From positions 744,001 to 808,000 of the forward strand of contig JACEUQ010000001.1 in assembly GCA_024998815.1 (NCBI GenBank): a DNA stretch of 64,000 bases. Reading direction: 5' to 3'. Source of the DNA: Opitutus sp. Lineage in GTDB: Bacteria > Verrucomicrobiota > Verrucomicrobiia > Opitutales > Opitutaceae. This document shows, piece by piece, positions 39,198 through 64,000 of the stretch. The notes under the pieces are model-generated. The model was not told the origin of the DNA and did no database searches. It saw nothing but the letters and a program-made list of their open reading frames with translations. A program made the position numbers and the translations under genes. Position 1 is the first letter of the stretch. Each line of letters begins with the position of its first letter.

Positions 39198-39478
39198 CAA
39201 TCAGTAAAGAGTAGCGGGTAGTTCAGAGCTAGGAGCTCATAGCTATTAGCTTATAGCTCAATCTCGTGTAATTTCGTGTTTGTCGTGGGCAAAAATCCAT
39301 CTGCCGTTTCTTCCGTGTATTCAGTGTTTTCCGTGGGCAAAACACCGCTACTTCGCACCCTTCGCTGCTAAACAATCCATAGCAAACCGTGGGCATGAGC
39401 ATGCCTGAACCCTTAGCACGCCTTCATTCAATTGAGTAACCCTATTGACGGCACTCCACCGCAAGGTAATTTGTGCGC

Positions 39479-39859: not shown

Positions 39860-40067
39860 TTTCCGGAATTCGCGTCCATCGTTCAGATCGAGCTTCGTGA
39901 CCCTTCGCGTACTTCGCGGTTAAAAAACTCCATTTTCCTACTTCCGCCTTTCGTGTCATTTCGTGTGTTTCGTGGGCCAAAATCCATCTGCCGATTCTTC
40001 CGTGTATTCAGTGTATTCCGTGTATTCCGTGGGTAACTCTCTGAAATCCTAATTCAACCTAAATCCG

Positions 40068-40554: not shown

Positions 40555-41700
40555 ATGATTTCAACCATGATCGACCGCCCCAGCTACCACCACGCCGTAG
40601 AACGGGCCTTAGCGAGGAGTCCAATTGTCGCGCTTTTAGGGCCACGCCAATGCGGAAAAACCAGTTTAGCCCGGCGGTTTCTCCCCGTCGAGCATCCCCA
40701 GTATTTCGACCTTGAGGACCCAGTGGTCGCTTCCTTGATGGAGAATCCCCTCACCGCCCTGCGGCACCTCAAGGGACTGGTGGTGATCGATGAAGCCCAG
40801 CGCCAACCGGGGCTGTTTCCGGTCCTGCGGGTGCTGGCCGATCGCTCAGAACAACCGGCCACGTTTTTGATTTTAGGCAGCGCTTCGCCGGAATTAGCCC
40901 GTCAATCCTCCGAGTCGCTGGCTGGGCGGGTTGAAATCATCGAAATGCGCGGCTTTGACCTCAGCGAGGTCGGCCCCACAGCACAAGAAAACCTTTGGCT
41001 ACGCGGAGGCTTCCCCCGCTCCTTTTTAGCGGCGACCGACGAAGACAGTACTGTTTGGCGCAAGCAGTTTATCGGCACCTTCCTAGAGCGGGACTTGGCG
41101 GCCCTGGGCTTTGGTTTGTCACCCGCCCTGATGCGCCGTTTCTGGCTGATGTTGGCCCACTACCACGGCCAAATTTGGAATGGGACCGAAATCGCCGCCT
41201 CGTTGGGGGTGGCCCCGAATACCGCCCGCGCTTATTTGGATGCCCTGGAGCAAACTTTTATGGTGCGCCGGCTCCTGCCATGGCACAATAACTTGGGCAA
41301 ACGCCTGGTTAAAACCCCCAAGTTGTATTTCCGCGACACCGGACTGCTGCACACCCTATTGGGGGTTGGCACAGGCATGGAATTATTAACACACCCCAAG
41401 TCCGGCGCATCCTGGGAAGGTTTTGCGCTGGAAGAGCTCATCCGCGCGGAGGCTCCGGACGAGGTCTATTTTTATGCCGTTCATAGCGGCAGTGAGCTCG
41501 ACCTATTAATGATCAAAAAAGGTCGACGGATAGGGGTGGAGTTTAAGCGCGCCGATGCACCGAAGTTGACCCGATCGATGGAAATATCTTTAACCGACCT
41601 AGTATTGGACGAACTCTGGGTAATCTATCCAGGAACCCGCAGCTACGGTCTCGCCGATAAAGTCACAGCGCGTCCTTTAATAATTAAGGGGGAGAGCTAG
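40555..41700 (+). CDS. AAA ATPase with C-terminal DUF4143
   Basis: 381 residues. Walker A LLGPRQCGKTSLAR (~28-41), Walker B LVVIDEAQRQPGLF, then LILGSASPEL. The second half is DUF4143: RDTGLLHTLLGV, WEGFALEELIRAE and the nuclease-like end YFYAVHSGSELDLLMIKKGRRIGVEFKR (~308-335), where E..D..K residues resemble a PD-(D/E)XK core. Common in bacterial genomic islands; the biological role is not established. Its TAG stop is supplied by the first unit of the GAGCTAG array that follows. Confidence 0.85.
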   Translation: MISTMIDRPSYHHAVERALARSPIVALLGPRQCGKTSLARRFLPVEHPQYFDLEDPVVASLMENPLTALRHLKGLVVIDEAQRQPGLFPVLRVLADRSEQPATFLILGSASPELARQSSESLAGRVEIIEMRGFDLSEVGPTAQENLWLRGGFPRSFLAATDEDSTVWRKQFIGTFLERDLAALGFGLSPALMRRFWLMLAHYHGQIWNGTEIAASLGVAPNTARAYLDALEQTFMVRRLLPWHNNLGKRLVKTPKLYFRDTGLLHTLLGVGTGMELLTHPKSGASWEGFALEELIRAEAPDEVYFYAVHSGSELDLLMIKKGRRIGVEFKRADAPKLTRSMEISLTDLVLDELWVIYPGTRSYGLADKVTARPLIIKGES

Positions 41701-41876
41701 GAGCTGGGAGCTAAGAGCTAGGAGCTAGGAGCTAGGAGCTGGGAGCTAAGAGCTAGGAGCTAGGAGCTGGGAGCTAAGAGCTAGGAGCTAGGAGCTAAGA
41801 GCTAGGAGCTAGGAGCTAAGAGCTAGGAGCTAGGAGCTAAGAGCTAGGAGCTAGGAGCTAGGAGCTCCAATTATTC
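41694..41876. repeat. GAGCTNN heptad array
   Basis: About 25 tandem copies of a 7-bp unit GAGCT(A/G)(A/G): GAGCTAG, GAGCTGG, GAGCTAA. The units form a 21-bp higher-order period (two AG/GG-type units then GAGCTAA). The first unit contains the stop codon of the upstream ATPase. Confidence 0.92.
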
Positions 41877-43441: not shown

Positions 43442-43512
43442 TCAGAAGCTCCCAGCTCATAGCTCATAGCTCCCAGCTCTCAGCTCCCTGCTCGCCGCTC
43501 CCAGCTCCCATC
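43442..43512. repeat. AGCTCNN heptad array
   Basis: Units AGCTCCC, AGCTCAT, AGCTCAT, AGCTCCC, AGCTCTC, AGCTCCC and variants run up to the stop of higA1; the same array as at 41694 in the opposite orientation. Confidence 0.8.
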
Positions 43513-43915: not shown

Positions 43916-45722
43916 GAGCCTGTCCCGAAAGCATAAAAACCTAGCAGTGAACTATTAGCATAAGTTTAATGATGCCTAAAGAGGGGTAATTCCCTGGTTT
44001 TGGTCAAAAAAAAGCCGCTATAATCGGCCATGAAGTCAAAACCCGTATCCGCCACCTCGGCCATTGCCCTGCAACGCTGGTTGCGTCCGGCGCTAACGCC
44101 AGTCGGTGCCAATAAAGATTACGCCGAGTTTCGCCAGCAATTGGAAGGACTCGACGCGTTGTTGCGTGGCAGCCACTTGGAGACGATGGCGATGGACTTT
44201 GCCAAGGCGGGGGCAGGCCAAGCCAGTGTCGCACAACTACGCCAGCGTATGGAGTTTGCGCTCAAAGCGTTACGCTTTGAAGTGTTGCGGGTGCATTTGG
44301 GCAACATATCCTTTCGCGAGCTTTCCCGTAGCATTGCCTCAAGTGATTTACTGGCGGATTTTTGCGGTGTTCGCACGCTTGAGGGAATCAAGGGGGCGTC
44401 CAAAAGTGTGCTGGAGCGGGCCTCGAAGTTTTTCACCGCCGAACAGGTGCGCTGGATGGGGCAAGTGTTGGTGGAGATGTGCGGCGAGAAGGATCGCGCC
44501 ACTGAACTCGGGTTGAGCGCGCCGCTGGACATGGATGTTTGCCTCATCGACGGCACGTGCTTGGAGACCAACATCCACTTCCCGGTGGACTGGGTGCTGT
44601 TGCGTGATGTGTCCAAGACTTTGCTCAAGGCCATGATTTTAATCCGCCGCGCTGGACTGCTCCACCGTATGCCTGAAGAGCCGGAGTGCTTTGCCAAGCA
44701 GATGAACAAGTTGTGCATGTCAATGACCCACGCAGGCCGCCGCAACGACGCCAAGCGCGCGCGTAAACAGATCCTGCGCAAGATGAAGACGCTGTTACGC
44801 ACGATCGGAGAACATGCCCGCCGCCACCGCGACCTGTTGGCGCAGAAGTATAGCCAAACCCATTACAGCCAACGCCAAACCAAGCGGATAACCACCCGCA
44901 TCGACGCTATGCTCGGCCAACTGCCCGCCGTCATCAAGCAGGCCCACGAGCGCATCATCGGCGGACGCCCGGTGCCCAACGACCAAAAGATCCTCAGCGT
45001 GCATGAACTTGATGTGAACGTACTGGTTCGCGGCAAAGCAGGGAGCCAAGTCGAGTTTGGCAACTCGTTGCTGTTGAGCGAGGCGCTCTCCGGTTTAATC
45101 ACCGACTGGCAACTCTACCAGGGCGCGGCTCCGGCAGAATGGTGCCAACTCGAGGAAAGCCTGGCGCGGCAGAACCGCTTTGACCTGAGTGCGCCGATTA
45201 GCGCGGTCGGCACCGACCGCGGCTTCGCCACCAAAAAAACTTCCGCAATGCTCAAGCAACAAGACGTTTACGATGCGGTATGCCCGCGTGATCCGCACGC
45301 GCTCAAGGAGCGTTTGAGCGAAAAACGCTTCGCCCAATTGCAGCGGCGCCGTTCGGCGACCGAAGCGCGCATTGCGATCCTCAAACAACGCCTCGGCGGA
45401 CGCTTGCGCTGTAAAGGGTTTGCCAACCGCTACCGTTCGGTGGGTTGGAGTGTACTCGGTCACAACCTCTGGCTGGTGTCACGAATCCTTGCCGAGGAAA
45501 TAACACTTCCGCTGGCCGCTTAATTCAATTTTCCGGCAAAAATGTGAATAACCCTGGGGCTCGCCCCGGCTTTGCCGTACCTTACTACCGCGCTTGGGGG
45601 CGGGAAAAATCGATTCGGGCCGCCGTTTAACGTCGCTGGGGTGATTCGTGCCACCTCGTTCGCCCGCAATCCCAATGGACCTCTGCGCACTTTTTAAAAA
45701 TCCGGAAATTTGGGACAGGCTC
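43916..45722. mobile_element. Insertion sequence, 1807 bp, in higB
   Basis: Inverted ends GAGCCTGTCCC at 43916-43926 and its complement at 45712-45722. Target duplication TATTTA at 43910-43915 and 45723-45728. One transposase gene on the plus strand, in the opposite direction to higB. The element appears intact. Confidence 0.92.
44030..45523 (+). CDS. DDE transposase (ISNCY/IS1182-like)
   Basis: 497 residues. DVCLIDGTCLETNIHFPVDWV is the first catalytic block (DxT..ETNIHxPxD pattern), VGTDRGFATKKTS the second, and the C-terminal GGRLRCKGFANRYRSVGWSVLGHNLW the third with a late acid in SATEARIAILKQR. Exact IS family is not certain from motifs. Lower similarity in base use to the host genes is not marked. 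Confidence 0.85.
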   Translation: MKSKPVSATSAIALQRWLRPALTPVGANKDYAEFRQQLEGLDALLRGSHLETMAMDFAKAGAGQASVAQLRQRMEFALKALRFEVLRVHLGNISFRELSRSIASSDLLADFCGVRTLEGIKGASKSVLERASKFFTAEQVRWMGQVLVEMCGEKDRATELGLSAPLDMDVCLIDGTCLETNIHFPVDWVLLRDVSKTLLKAMILIRRAGLLHRMPEEPECFAKQMNKLCMSMTHAGRRNDAKRARKQILRKMKTLLRTIGEHARRHRDLLAQKYSQTHYSQRQTKRITTRIDAMLGQLPAVIKQAHERIIGGRPVPNDQKILSVHELDVNVLVRGKAGSQVEFGNSLLLSEALSGLITDWQLYQGAAPAEWCQLEESLARQNRFDLSAPISAVGTDRGFATKKTSAMLKQQDVYDAVCPRDPHALKERLSEKRFAQLQRRRSATEARIAILKQRLGGRLRCKGFANRYRSVGWSVLGHNLWLVSRILAEEITLPLAA

Positions 45723-45927: not shown

Positions 45928-46395
45928 TCCGGACAATGTGAACCCCAAAATACTTACGTCAAGCGGAAACCCAAGTATTGAATCAGCCCGTCCCTAGTCT
46001 AGTTCGTCATTCACACTTCGTGCCCCCTCGCGTACTTCGCGGTAAAAAAACTCCGGTTTCCTACTGCCGCATTTCGTGTTTTTCGTGGGCCAAAATCCAA
46101 CTGCCGATTCTTCCGTGTATTCAGTGTATTCCGTGGGCAACCTGCTCCACTTCGCGAGCCTTCGGATCGACTTCGCGGTAAAAAACCCGAATTAATACAT
46201 GTGTTAACCGCGAAGAACGCCAAGTCACGCTAAGTTAAAAAAAACGAATCTTCGTGCCCCTTCGCGTACTTCGCGGTTAAAAAAACTCCGGTTTCCTACT
46301 GCCGATTTTCGTGTCATTTCGTGTGTTTCGTGGGCACCAATCAGAGCTCCCAGCTCCTAGCTCCTAGCTCCAAGCTCCACTAGCTCAAACCCCGC
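45928..46395. other. Repeat-rich spacer between the two higBA loci
   Basis: No gene in 468 bases. It carries CGTG-rich modules (TTTCGTG repeated; TTCCGTGTATTCAGTGTATT), CTTCGCGGTTAAAA modules, a GTTAACCGCGAAGAACGCCA arm, and AGCTCCT/AGCTCCA heptads at 46345-46380. Its last ~110 bases match 47105-47215 almost exactly. Confidence 0.6.
46268..46380. repeat. Composite repeat module, copy 1
   Basis: ACTCCGGTTTCCTACTGCCG, then TTTTCGTGTCATTTCGTGTG, TTTCGTGGGCACCAATCAG and AGCTCC heptads. The same order recurs at 47105-47225. Confidence 0.85.
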
Positions 46396-46695
46396 CTAAG
46401 CTGCAATCGCTTCGTGGGGGGTGATGTGATCAAGCTCTCGGGCAATTCTCCTTTTAGCAGCTCGAATGTCGCAAGCAAGCTGGACTCGAAGCCAATACCC
46501 TTCAGATAATCCAAAATAGCGATCAAGCCGCAACCCGGTATCTGCGGTGATGCCCCTCTTCCCATTTATAATTGATGAAATTCTTGAGAGTGGAACGCCT
46601 ATGTCCTTGGCTAGGCGGTAAGAAGAAATTCCCACAGGCTTGAGGAAGTCCTCAAGAAGAACTTCTCCAGAAAAAAGTAGCGGGAGGTTTTTCAT
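46396..46695 (-). CDS. higA: HigA-family antitoxin (locus 2)
   Basis: 99 residues. SGEVLLEDFLKPVGISSYRL, then AKDIGVPLSRISSIINGKRG and ITADTGLRLDRYFGLSEGYW give the HigA HTH. One base separates its ATG from the stop of the upstream higB remnant, so it was translationally coupled. The toxin partner has a nonsense codon; the antitoxin frame is open. Confidence 0.92.
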   Translation of the reverse strand: MKNLPLLFSGEVLLEDFLKPVGISSYRLAKDIGVPLSRISSIINGKRGITADTGLRLDRYFGLSEGYWLRVQLACDIRAAKRRIARELDHITPHEAIAA

Positions 46696-46696
46696 A

Positions 46697-46978
46697 TTAA
46701 TGGTAGTCTACGATTTCGACTTGGGTTGAGTCACCCCCGACCCAATTAAAGCAGATGCGCCATTGGTCATTTATTCTAATTGAATATTGCCCCTTACGGT
46801 CACCTTTCAGTACTTCCAGTTTATTTCCTGGAGGAATGCGAAGGTCCGACAACTACTGGGATGCATTTAATTGAATGAGTTTACGGCGTGCTGTTTTTAG
46901 AATAGTGGGAGGAAGTCCGGGATAACTGAAGTCATTAAAAATGGCTTCAGCGCGTTCGTCGCTGAACGAGAGGATCAT
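46697..46978 (-). pseudogene. higB: HigB-type toxin with internal TAG (locus 2)
   Basis: Reading the minus strand from 46978 gives MILSFSDERAEAIFNDFSY ... RRKLIQLNASQ, then TAG at 46855-46853, then [20 protein letters not shown] and [17 protein letters not shown], ending VEIVDYH. Everything after the stop matches a normal HigB C-terminus in the same frame, so a single base change (for example TCG to TAG) explains the loss. The first 41 residues would not make a toxin. Confidence 0.9.
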
Positions 46979-47340
46979 GAGATAAGAAACCTAAAACGTG
47001 GTTTTGGTAACGTCAAGCGTAACCATTTCACTACCGGATGCCGATTCGTCCGCGTATTCAGTGTATTCCGTGGGCAACACCGCTCTACTTCGCTAGCCTA
47101 TGGATCGACTTCGCGGTTAAAAATTCCGGTTTCCTACTGCCGATTTTCGTGTCATTTCGTGTGTTTCGTGGGCACCAATCAGAGCTCCCAGCTCCTAGCT
47201 CCAAGCTCCTAGCTCCCAGCTCCATCCGCCGCTTCGCCGCCCAAGCCGAGTCCCCATTGCGTAACACCACAATTCACATCAAACATCAAAGTTTTATATA
47301 AATTCAATTTTAGCGGGCTAATTTCAAAGCGTATTAAAAA
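46979..47340. other. Repeat-rich spacer before the GT gene
   Basis: No gene in 362 bases. It has CGTG-rich modules, CTATGGATCGACTTCGCGG with GTTAAAAA, the composite module shared with 46268-46380, and AGCTCCN heptads at 47186-47225. Confidence 0.6.
47105..47225. repeat. Composite repeat module, copy 2
   Basis: Same order of blocks as 46268-46380, including CTACTGCCGATTTTCGTGTC and GGGCACCAATCAGAGCTCCC, extended by more AGCTCCN heptads. Confidence 0.85.
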
Positions 47341-49982: not shown

Positions 49983-50118
49983 ATGAGCGATGAGCTAGTA
50001 GCTAAGAGCTGGGAGCTTCAGAGGTTGTGTCGAGGCAGGTGTTTGAGGCTGAATTAGCTGTGAGCGATTAGCTGAAAGCTTCTGACCGAAGGCTCCAAGC
50101 TCATAGCTCCTAGCTGAA
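49983..50118. repeat. GAGCT heptad remnants between two Gmd-like genes
   Basis: Units GAGCTAG, TAGCTAA, GAGCTGG, GAGCTTC and then AGCTCCA, AGCTCAT, AGCTCCT, AGCTGAA, in two orientations, fill the gap. Confidence 0.6.
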
Positions 50119-62929: not shown

Positions 62930-64000
62930 TCAGGCGCGTTTAGACTTCACGAAATCGAGAATGACTTCGATCTCGTAGGCAAGCATCGCAGGGGTGAGAC
63001 CGGGATAAGTGCCGAGGAAAATCGCCTCGTTCATGATGGCGTCGGCGCCGGGGAAAGCCGCTCCAATTGTTTCGCTGGTGACCGGGGTAATCGTCGCACC
63101 ATTGGCACCAACCAAACGGATGGCCGCAGGGCGGTCCTTGCGAAGTTGCACGAACACAGGCTGACGAAGCAGATTGCCGCCGAAGAACATACGGTTGCCA
63201 ATATTTTTTTCGTTAAGGTGGCGGGCAAAGTCTGAGTGGCTGAAGGGCGCGGTGGGTTTGACCCGGAGCATGAAGCCAAACCAAGATGTGTCCACCCGGC
63301 ACCCAGTCGCGTCCCACTCGAAACCTTTGGGCGTCCAGCGCGTAGCATGGGTGGGTAAAGTAAAGTCGAAGCTGTCTTCTAGGTCGGCCAAACCGGCACG
63401 TAGGGTTTCCCAATTTTGCTTACGCGCTTCGATGAATGAGGGTAACTTTTTGAGTTGTTGACGACCGATGGCAGCCTGGGGGTCGAGGGGTTTTAAATTA
63501 TAACCCAGATGGCTATAGATATACTTGTGGTCATAGCCTTTGGGCAGTTCACCAAGTTGCCAGCCAAAGCGCTTGCAGCAGGTATCGTCCTTCCCGGAGG
63601 GACACCAGCAATCGCGGCCCCAATCGCGGAAGCTTTCCGCGTAGGTTTTTAAGGGGGGCTTACTGATGATGTTAACCGCCCCACCCTCGCCCATGGTTAA
63701 GTGGTGCGGGGGGTAGAAGGATTGGGTGGAGATATCGCCGAAGCTGCCGGTGTAAGCGGTCAAAATGCCATTCTCAACGAATGGAATTTTAAGCTGGGAG
63801 CTGTGAGCTGTGAGCGTTGAGCTGGGAGCTTGGAGCTGGGAGCTGCTAGATCCTATCTCAGAGCTCTTAGCTCCTAGCTCTAGGCTACTAGCTCGTAGCT
63901 CTAGGCTACTAGCTCGTAGCTCTAGGCTACTAGCTCGTAGCTCTAGGCTACTAGCTCGTAGCTCTAGGCTACTAGCTCGTAGCTCACCGTTCGCTTCCGC
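62930..64000 (-). CDS. rfbH: RfbH/DdhC-like CDP-4-keto-6-deoxyglucose 3-dehydrase, 5' end outside window, with in-frame repeat array
   Basis: The frame is open from the window edge to the stop at 62930 (356 codons visible). Residues after the array match the PMP-dependent E1 dehydrase: TQSFYPPHHLTMGEGGAV, where His replaces the PLP lysine, and CWCPSGKDDTCCKRF, the iron-sulphur cluster cysteines, then GYDHKYIYSHLGYNLKPLDPQAAIG. From 63985 to 63788 a 198-bp heptad array encodes five ELRASSL units plus a degenerate tail. Flanks read AEANG on one side and IPFVENGILTAYTGSFGD on the other; the usual EDNCDALG block of the family, which binds the cofactor, is not seen. The protein may be inactive. 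Confidence 0.8.
   Translation of the reverse strand, partial: AEANGELRASSLELRASSLELRASSLELRASSLELRASSLELGAKSSEIGSSSSQLQAPSSTLTAHSSQLKIPFVENGILTAYTGSFGDISTQSFYPPHHLTMGEGGAVNIISKPPLKTYAESFRDWGRDCWCPSGKDDTCCKRFGWQLGELPKGYDHKYIYSHLGYNLKPLDPQAAIGRQQLKKLPSFIEARKQNWETLRAGLADLEDSFDFTLPTHATRWTPKGFEWDATGCRVDTSWFGFMLRVKPTAPFSHSDFARHLNEKNIGNRMFFGGNLLRQPVFVQLRKDRPAAIRLVGANGATITPVTSETIGAAFPGADAIMNEAIFLGTYPGLTPAMLAYEIEVILDFVKSKRA
63788..63985. repeat. AGCT heptad array, with five perfect 21-bp units, inside the rfbH frame
   Basis: 63876-63980 holds five identical 21-bp units (heptads AGCTCTA, GGCTACT, AGCTCGT). 63788-63875 holds degenerate heptads such as AGCTGGG, AGCTGTG, AGCTTGG. On the minus strand only the rfbH frame lacks stops; each other frame has a TAG in every unit. 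Confidence 0.95.

Follow-up and report, generated by a model that had tools for sequence, protein, structure and literature searches.

An in-frame AGCT heptad array in an rfbH gene of Opitutus sp. as a likely member of a dispersed heptanucleotide repeat family

Results

The rfbH gene of the window and its heptad array

We analysed a stretch of 64,000 nucleotides from Opitutus sp. (the window), which spans G000:C1:744001-808000 and whose edge cuts a gene of the RfbH family that carries an array of AGCT heptads. The respective features are as follows.

62930..64000, minus strand: C-terminal two thirds of an RfbH gene (CDP-4-keto-6-deoxyglucose 3-dehydrase family), based on ORF, NCBIfam and PDB
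63788..63991, minus strand: heptad AGCT array, 68 residues between LAEA and IPFV, sole open frame of six
63881..63985, minus strand: five exact 21-bp units of three heptads apiece, each encoding ELRASSL (exact occurrence)
63792..63845, plus strand: purine-type arm of AGCTGGG-like heptads, unit string RRRRRYYYYYYY
63862..63985, plus strand: pyrimidine-type arm of AGCTCNN heptads and derivatives, expanded by 21-bp units
43916..45722, plus strand: 1,807-bp insertion sequence, 99.94% identical to the copy that interrupts the 5' part of rfbH

The open frame of the window rfbH comprises 541 aa and extends past the window end to about position 64555. With 567.7 bits against NCBIfam NF011936 (cut-off 423), its product belongs to the RfbH family. 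The closest solved relative is PDB 3bcx (E 7.1e-107) and the first-listed named relative, from Verrucomicrobia bacterium IMCC26134, shows 68% identity on the best segment. A first-pass annotation of the window had described the EDNCDALG block as apparently missing. This was wrong: the block (LWLIEDNCDALGCTYSLPIARAKALGLDHLLKLAEA) is located in the same frame about 65-90 bp beyond the window end, i.e., its apparent absence results from the window edge cutting the gene. Furthermore, reading past the window end revealed no stop codon or frameshift just upstream of position 64000.

About 180 codons above the window end, rfbH meets the 1,807-bp insertion sequence with TAAATA at both flanks. The element cuts off about the first 50 RfbH residues and displaced N-terminal RfbH sequence is found beyond it, that is, the N-terminal segment of the window copy is split rather than continuous. 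Since both copies of the element are 99.94% identical, the insertion into rfbH is recent. The recent truncation of the window rfbH is thus due to the insertion sequence close to its 5' end, and the array is not responsible. For the element itself, the label IS1182 was dropped: NCBIfam ranks ISNCY first, but its score of 198.9 bits is below the cut-off of 325, so that no family is claimed.

On the minus strand, 63788-63991 reads NGELRASSLELRASSLELRASSLELRASSLELRASSLELGAKSSEIGSSSSQLQAPSSTLTAHSSQLK, i.e., 68 residues without a stop in the frame of rfbH, which agrees with the array and open frame described in the first-pass annotation. Its five 21-bp units encoding ELRASSL were likewise recovered exactly, as was the TAG that it had reported per unit in both other minus-strand frames; these frames contain 7 and 15 stops across the array, while the plus frames contain 12, 1 and 9. 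Openness across one frame was observed for 1/5000 dinucleotide shuffles of the array. TRF applied to the window reports a period of 42 over 63868-63985, with periods 7, 14 and 21 found among the arrays. The rfbH array is of the two-armed kind, i.e., a purine arm is followed by a pyrimidine arm, and the RNA of 63788-63990 is predicted to fold with -102.1 kcal/mol compared to -75.3 for shuffles (z -5.7).

The second rfbH copy

The genome (G000) encodes a second rfbH at G000:C2:964432-966537, whose reading frame is uninterrupted (701 aa, counting a fused N-terminal segment). At the site of the window array, this paralog shows 13 residues (KSLELGAESSQLK) compared to 68 in the window copy. It carries an extra array near the C-terminal domain, which is absent from the window copy. 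No clear target duplication was seen at the site for this one array-present/absent pair, nor did we find an empty site that shows a clean footprint of insertion. In the congeners G008 and G011, the first array site holds an unrelated, shorter loop, and relative to PDB 3bcx the array sits in an alignment gap between chain residues 201 and 205. The array occupies a variable, probably surface-exposed RfbH loop; the AlphaFold2 model of the 356-aa window fragment (mean pLDDT 62.2; array pLDDT about 26-54) does not resolve this loop.

In both rfbH copies (L053:10536-12638; L001:5325-5789), the native RfbH start known from congeners is replaced by a PemK/MazF-like segment, which precedes the gene or is fused to it in frame. 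The PemK score is just above the cut-off in the C2 copy only, and the toxin-like parts of the two copies are, by eye, much more diverged than the RfbH parts. In G008, the rfbH gene (L209) has a loop near the C-terminus (SSSDGSQLLSSDQQPNNPTNQQPND) that resembles translated heptads of yet another kind.

Given its truncation by the insertion sequence, and given a second open rfbH that may render it dispensable, the window gene could be a degenerate relic in which the array stays open by chance alone. We consider this highly improbable. The insertion is recent, as judged from the near-identity of the element's copies, and the frame is otherwise open over its 541 aa, with a score above the RfbH cut-off. 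Moreover, chance openness is rare in long arrays: for arrays of at least 80 bp, 1/72 frames is open in the 12 non-genic ones, compared to 8 genic arrays open in the coding frame, which had been chosen by openness. The same in-frame pattern is also found in uvrA, mfd and glnS. The earlier suspicion of a broken gene kept open by chance thus holds only in that the window copy is broken. The breaker is the recent 5' insertion sequence. Concerning the array the suspicion is wrong, and the C2 paralog is open over the same region.

A dispersed heptad family

Searching the own genome with (AGCTNNN)4AGCT gives 443 overlapping matches, compared to 0 with the reversed control. We identified 89 arrays in 597 kb, which comprise the window and stretches chosen around listed pattern matches. 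Their unit is AGCTNNN repeated head to tail with an AGCT spacing of 7, i.e., a 7-nt tandem repeat. Non-genic arrays are often within a few bases of gene ends. Besides the rfbH array, the window contains

39227..39258, plus strand: short AGCT heptad array
41695..41866, plus strand: intergenic array of 25 AGCT heptads; the upstream 381-aa ORF ends in its first bases
43447..43506, plus strand: intergenic AGCT heptad array
46345..46376, plus strand: intergenic AGCT heptad array
47183..47221, plus strand: intergenic AGCT heptad array
49993..50115, plus strand: two short neighbouring AGCT arrays, purine arm then pyrimidine arm

where both genes flanking the last pair resemble GDP-mannose 4,6-dehydratases when read by eye. 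Close to arrays, at 39998-40031 and 46020-47180, we also noted 9-nt TTCCGTGTA repeats and, by eye, GCGAAG/TTCGTG-like stretches.

Using our own typing rule, 37 of the 89 arrays are purine-type only (AGCTGGG, AGCTAGG), 35 are pyrimidine-type only (AGCTCCC, AGCTCCT), 15 are mixed and 2 remain untyped. Nearly all mixed arrays (14/15) show the order purine to pyrimidine, i.e., form inverted repeats, and the same order is found for all neighbouring single-arm arrays with starts within 120 bp (7/7).

Further elements accompany the arrays. Copies of an element encoding a 355-aa transposase lie inside AGCT arrays or at array edges (G000 C1:363341, 828331, 835254, i.e., L034:11342-12406, L038:13332-14396, L039:455-1519). 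The L034 copy exceeds the NCBIfam IS630 cut-off, and all three copies examined have CTAG at both ends. AGCT arrays are rich in CTAG and may serve as landing pads for this element. A gene for a 23S rRNA intervening-sequence protein (PF05635; L039:3708-4055, i.e., G000 C1:838507-838854) has AGCT arrays on both flanks. Within L052, L053 and L054 (G000 C2:945000-985000), several short arrays have a common flank like TGGGCAATNAT, either directly before the first AGCT or as complement after the last, some of them in tandem duplicates. This flank resembles another dispersed repeat or a defined array boundary.

By rule, 33/89 arrays are genic, i.e., the frame is open for at least 40 codons on both sides. 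For the statistics we used 31 genic arrays: C1:892891, C2:758661 and C2:952751 were dropped (short ORFs), while C1:494200, located towards the end of a ribonucleotide reductase gene, was added. Based on Pfam, the carriers encode UvrA (five arrays), GlnRS, SMC, BatD, DUF58, an ABC (Wzt) protein, DUF2126, a flavin oxidoreductase, a helicase, DegT (RfbH), a sugar-nucleotide dehydratase, Mfd, an E1 fusion, HsdM, a flavodoxin/FAD reductase, a ferredoxin-DmsC protein, a molybdopterin oxidoreductase, a methyltransferase, a monomeric IDH and MetH. The carrier at L052:6258-8576 had no match in the Pfam search. Among ten same-strand ORF pairs around arrays, none resembles two halves of one gene: in 7 pairs the members match different Pfam families (one weakly), and in 3 one member is without a match.

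Such many in-frame copies in unrelated genes, together with the inverted-repeat order and the additional array in only one rfbH paralog, would fit a selfish coding element that is mobile as a whole and prefers frame-neutral insertion, comparable to Rickettsia palindromic elements. For the 41 runs of at least 5 units (shorter arrays, including the tandem duplicates at C2:951206-952210, are outside this set), common unit order does not exceed the shuffled null: words of 4 units are found in 5 pairs (shuffled mean 2.8) and words of 5 units in 0 (0.65). Whole-array copying between loci was thus rejected, and the missing common order favours local growth of the arrays. A moving unit is also at odds with 72/89 arrays being one-armed (some of them form the neighbouring pairs within 120 bp), and with the one insertion for which an empty paralog exists, where no clear target duplication was seen. 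Finally, the Y1 transposase family PF01797 is found in 11/13 congeners with or without arrays, e.g., with one match in the array-rich G007 and six in the array-free G001. In view of this missing association, a Y1/RAYT transposase was set aside as spreading agent; that is, array presence does not track the Y1 transposase as it does for REP/BIME elements with RAYT. Overall, we regard a selfish element as unlikely and local growth as the better description.

Frame keeping within and between genes

Next, we compared array lengths between the own genome and the congener G007. There, 32 arrays were examined, 16 of which have both flanks in sampled G000 DNA; merging two adjacent arrays results in 15 comparisons. 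The intragenic length differences are -63, +63, +42, +21, -6, +6, +9, -63 and +27 bp, i.e., a multiple of 3 in 9/9 and a multiple of 21 in 5/9 cases. Intergenic differences show remainders modulo 3 of 1, 1, 0, 1, 1 and 2; thus, 1/6 is a multiple of 3, where two of the six comparisons concern adjacent arms at a single site and one anchor is weak. The two groups differ significantly (Fisher p 0.002).

These differences bear on whether the arrays are contingency (phase-variation) loci, with on/off switching by heptad number. One heptad gained or lost shifts the frame, and rfbH belongs, as we infer from its family, to surface-polysaccharide synthesis. Such switching predicts frame-shifting unit changes, in contrast to the intragenic ortholog differences between species, which are all multiples of 3. 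The RfbH expansion proceeds in 21-bp units, and on-off switching is implausible for carriers like UvrA, Mfd, GlnRS, SMC and MetH. Contingency loci are thus a very remote explanation of the arrays.

Genic arrays make up 35% of the sampled arrays compared to 87% of the DNA being in ORFs of at least 90 aa, where the latter overestimates the coding fraction. Arrays are therefore depleted in genes. In a rough calculation, the density of the 58 non-genic arrays in the 13% outside ORFs, extrapolated to the ORFs, gives about 400 expected insertions; a 7% chance to be in frame and open leaves about 29 of these, near the 31 seen. This is a consistency check only, given the overestimated coding fraction and the choice of stretches around arrays.

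The first-pass annotation had considered a repeat able to enter genes while leaving the frame intact. As an outcome this is supported by about 31/89 genic arrays and the frame-preserving length differences. Compared with frame-respecting insertion, survival after selection fits the data better: intergenic arrays are mostly closed, their lengths differ irrespective of 3, and the share of genic arrays is below that of the ORFs in the DNA.

Single-arm genic arrays show a strong orientation bias, with the pyrimidine arm in sense in 21 and the purine arm in 3 cases (p 0.0003). Within non-genic arrays, both arm readings are equally open (37/144 frames each). The pyrimidine-sense excess is left unexplained by the selection model. 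The same lean is present for arrays between same-direction genes (10 to 6, not significant).

Not every genic array is an insert. The IDH array (L056:648-698, i.e., G000 C2:1013647-1013697) aligns without gap to a solved IDH and thus represents no length insertion; some of the 31 genic arrays were compared in this respect. The heptad-spaced AGCTs of IDH may be overwritten sequence or coincidence.

Distribution among relatives

Among 56 genomes (own included), the pattern is present in six, namely with 443 matches in the own genome, 226 in G007 and 1 to 4 in four other congeners. Correspondingly, (AGCTNNN)4AGCT is found 0-4 times in the other 11 congeners and 0 times in the 43 genomes outside the genus. 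Within a sample of the phylum, 21/387 genomes show AGCT heptads, with 208 matches in one genome of an unrelated family (G205) and 19 and 10 in two genomes of the same family. The reversed TCGA control is found in 19/387 genomes (counted from the table). AGCT as a special core was thus rejected; only the high counts (443, 208) are unusual. Given the counts across genomes, the distribution suggests a recent bloom in the genus and blooming of the same core elsewhere, with the array set of G205 apparently representing an independent bloom. The 208 overlapping matches of G205 have different spacers (GAT, GGT and CGT among those listed). Many copies per genome in a lineage-specific distribution are in accordance with dispersed heptanucleotide repeats.

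Probably permissive loops in RfbH and other proteins

The Mfd array is located in the N-terminal region, which is variable among the ten genomes read. When testing this loop in eight congeners, 6 show a 7-base periodicity (P below 0.01) and 2 do not; the periodic loops consist of AGCT-like heptads in two congeners and of CAGGTTT-like heptads in four. We found no bloom of CAGGTTT heptads as a second dispersed family, i.e., CAGGTYTCAGGTYTCAGG has one match each in 3/13 genomes. The GlnRS array lies within a segment that is absent from the best-matching solved GlnRS, and the array of the E1 fusion is in the linker joining the alpha and beta parts.

Six long RfbH loops, picked from 34 translated homologs, were tested for a 7-base period. 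Half of these loops from other bacteria (L067, L068 and L069; 3/6) are 7-periodic with other heptads, while the best period is 8 for L063 and the signal is absent from L075 and L090. For 15 homolog loops, chosen by eye for a repetitive or long look, 10 have a best period of 7 with P below 0.01. No 7-base period was found in L075, L090, L148 and L151 (P 0.21-0.67), and L063 again shows best period 8.

Discussion

Taken together, we consider it likely that the rfbH array is a member of a dispersed, recently expanded AGCTNNN heptanucleotide family, located in a variable RfbH loop, and that heptads arise or land broadly while, within genes, survival is limited to stop-free arrays that keep the frame and lie in permissive loops. 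Under such a process, short AGCT heptad seeds would arise at numerous sites and be extended locally through slippage or recombination. Gene-breaking arrays would be lost, such that those left in genes would have a length that is a multiple of 3 and no stop in their coding-frame heptads. Three heptads are 21 bp, and growth or loss in that step therefore keeps the frame. Later gain or loss of 21 bp would add or remove seven residues (S-S-x-L-x-A-x), tolerated by the variable loop. The window rfbH would have been truncated only afterwards, by an insertion sequence with no relation to the array.

Dispersed heptads are known from other bacteria. The G-rich heptamers of Xanthomonas and Nostoc are described as dispersed 7-nt tandem repeats of 2 to 26 units with core GGGAATC or GGGGAYT, for which a G-quadruplex role was proposed; in Xanthomonas, they are reported to form inverted repeats by convergent pairs (70 in Xcc, 75 in Xac) and to be intragenic in 11% and 7% of the cases, while 68% are intergenic in Nostoc (Rehm et al. 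2015, PMC4692102). The AGCT arrays resemble them as dispersed 7-nt tandem repeats with convergent pairs (14/15 mixed arrays) and arrays near gene ends, but differ in the core. Furthermore, frame-preserving length change in housekeeping genes is not among the features reported in the sections of that publication used here. The TAACTGA heptamers of Beggiatoaceae are, according to the excerpts considered, also dispersed direct repeats with a scattered phylogenetic spread (MacGregor 2015, PMC4679880), which likewise applies to the AGCT heptads. Since AGCTNNN matches none of GGGAATC, GGGGAYT and TAACTGA, the repeats are of the same kind but do not belong to those named families. STRR heptanucleotides of heterocystous cyanobacteria, e.g., Calothrix, are dispersed short tandem repeats as well, with cores that differ from AGCT.

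Concerning repeats within proteins, Rickettsia palindromic elements of about 150 bp and ten families are described as inserting in frame in unrelated protein-coding genes (review PMC10969869, describing Ogata 2000, 2002). As far as this summary goes, the AGCT arrays are similar in being in frame within protein-coding genes but differ by heptads of variable length without a common unit order; they lack a whole-element consensus, as we read the definition of the families. PARCELs are, in the portions of the article consulted, translated tandem repeats with dyad symmetry and a 25-residue motif, located in ORFs without assigned function, many of which have membrane-targeting sequences, with a link to mobile elements in some taxa (Roske et al. 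2010, PMC2996958). The AGCT arrays are also tandem repeats with dyad symmetry in an open frame, but their unit is 7 and not 25 residues. Thus, other systems already provide examples of dispersed heptads, of convergent pairs and of in-frame palindromes, and the AGCT arrays combine the three in a new way. Our full-text searches, with most subscription journals outside their coverage, found no publication that describes AGCT heptads for Verrucomicrobiota or reports heptad arrays of housekeeping genes changing in length while keeping the frame.

A wider reading, which we consider rather doubtful, is that heptad arrays generally and repeatedly give rise to new protein segments. That is, any expanding heptanucleotide would colonise the same permissive loops (RfbH, Mfd, GlnRS), open arrays would encode heptapeptide repeats growing in frame-neutral steps, and loop length and sequence would be diversified genome-wide, possibly with a dedicated AGCT-seeding machinery.

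For annotation, the finding implies that S-S-x-L-x-A-x peptides are repeat-derived and should not be taken for domains. While bacterial heptanucleotide repeats are treated mainly as intergenic in the publications considered, they are found here within uvrA, mfd, smc, glnS and metH, among others, and the congener comparison shows intragenic array lengths to change in frame-keeping steps. The arrays thus provide a natural experiment on the amount of foreign sequence tolerated by conserved proteins and on how short repeats become protein.
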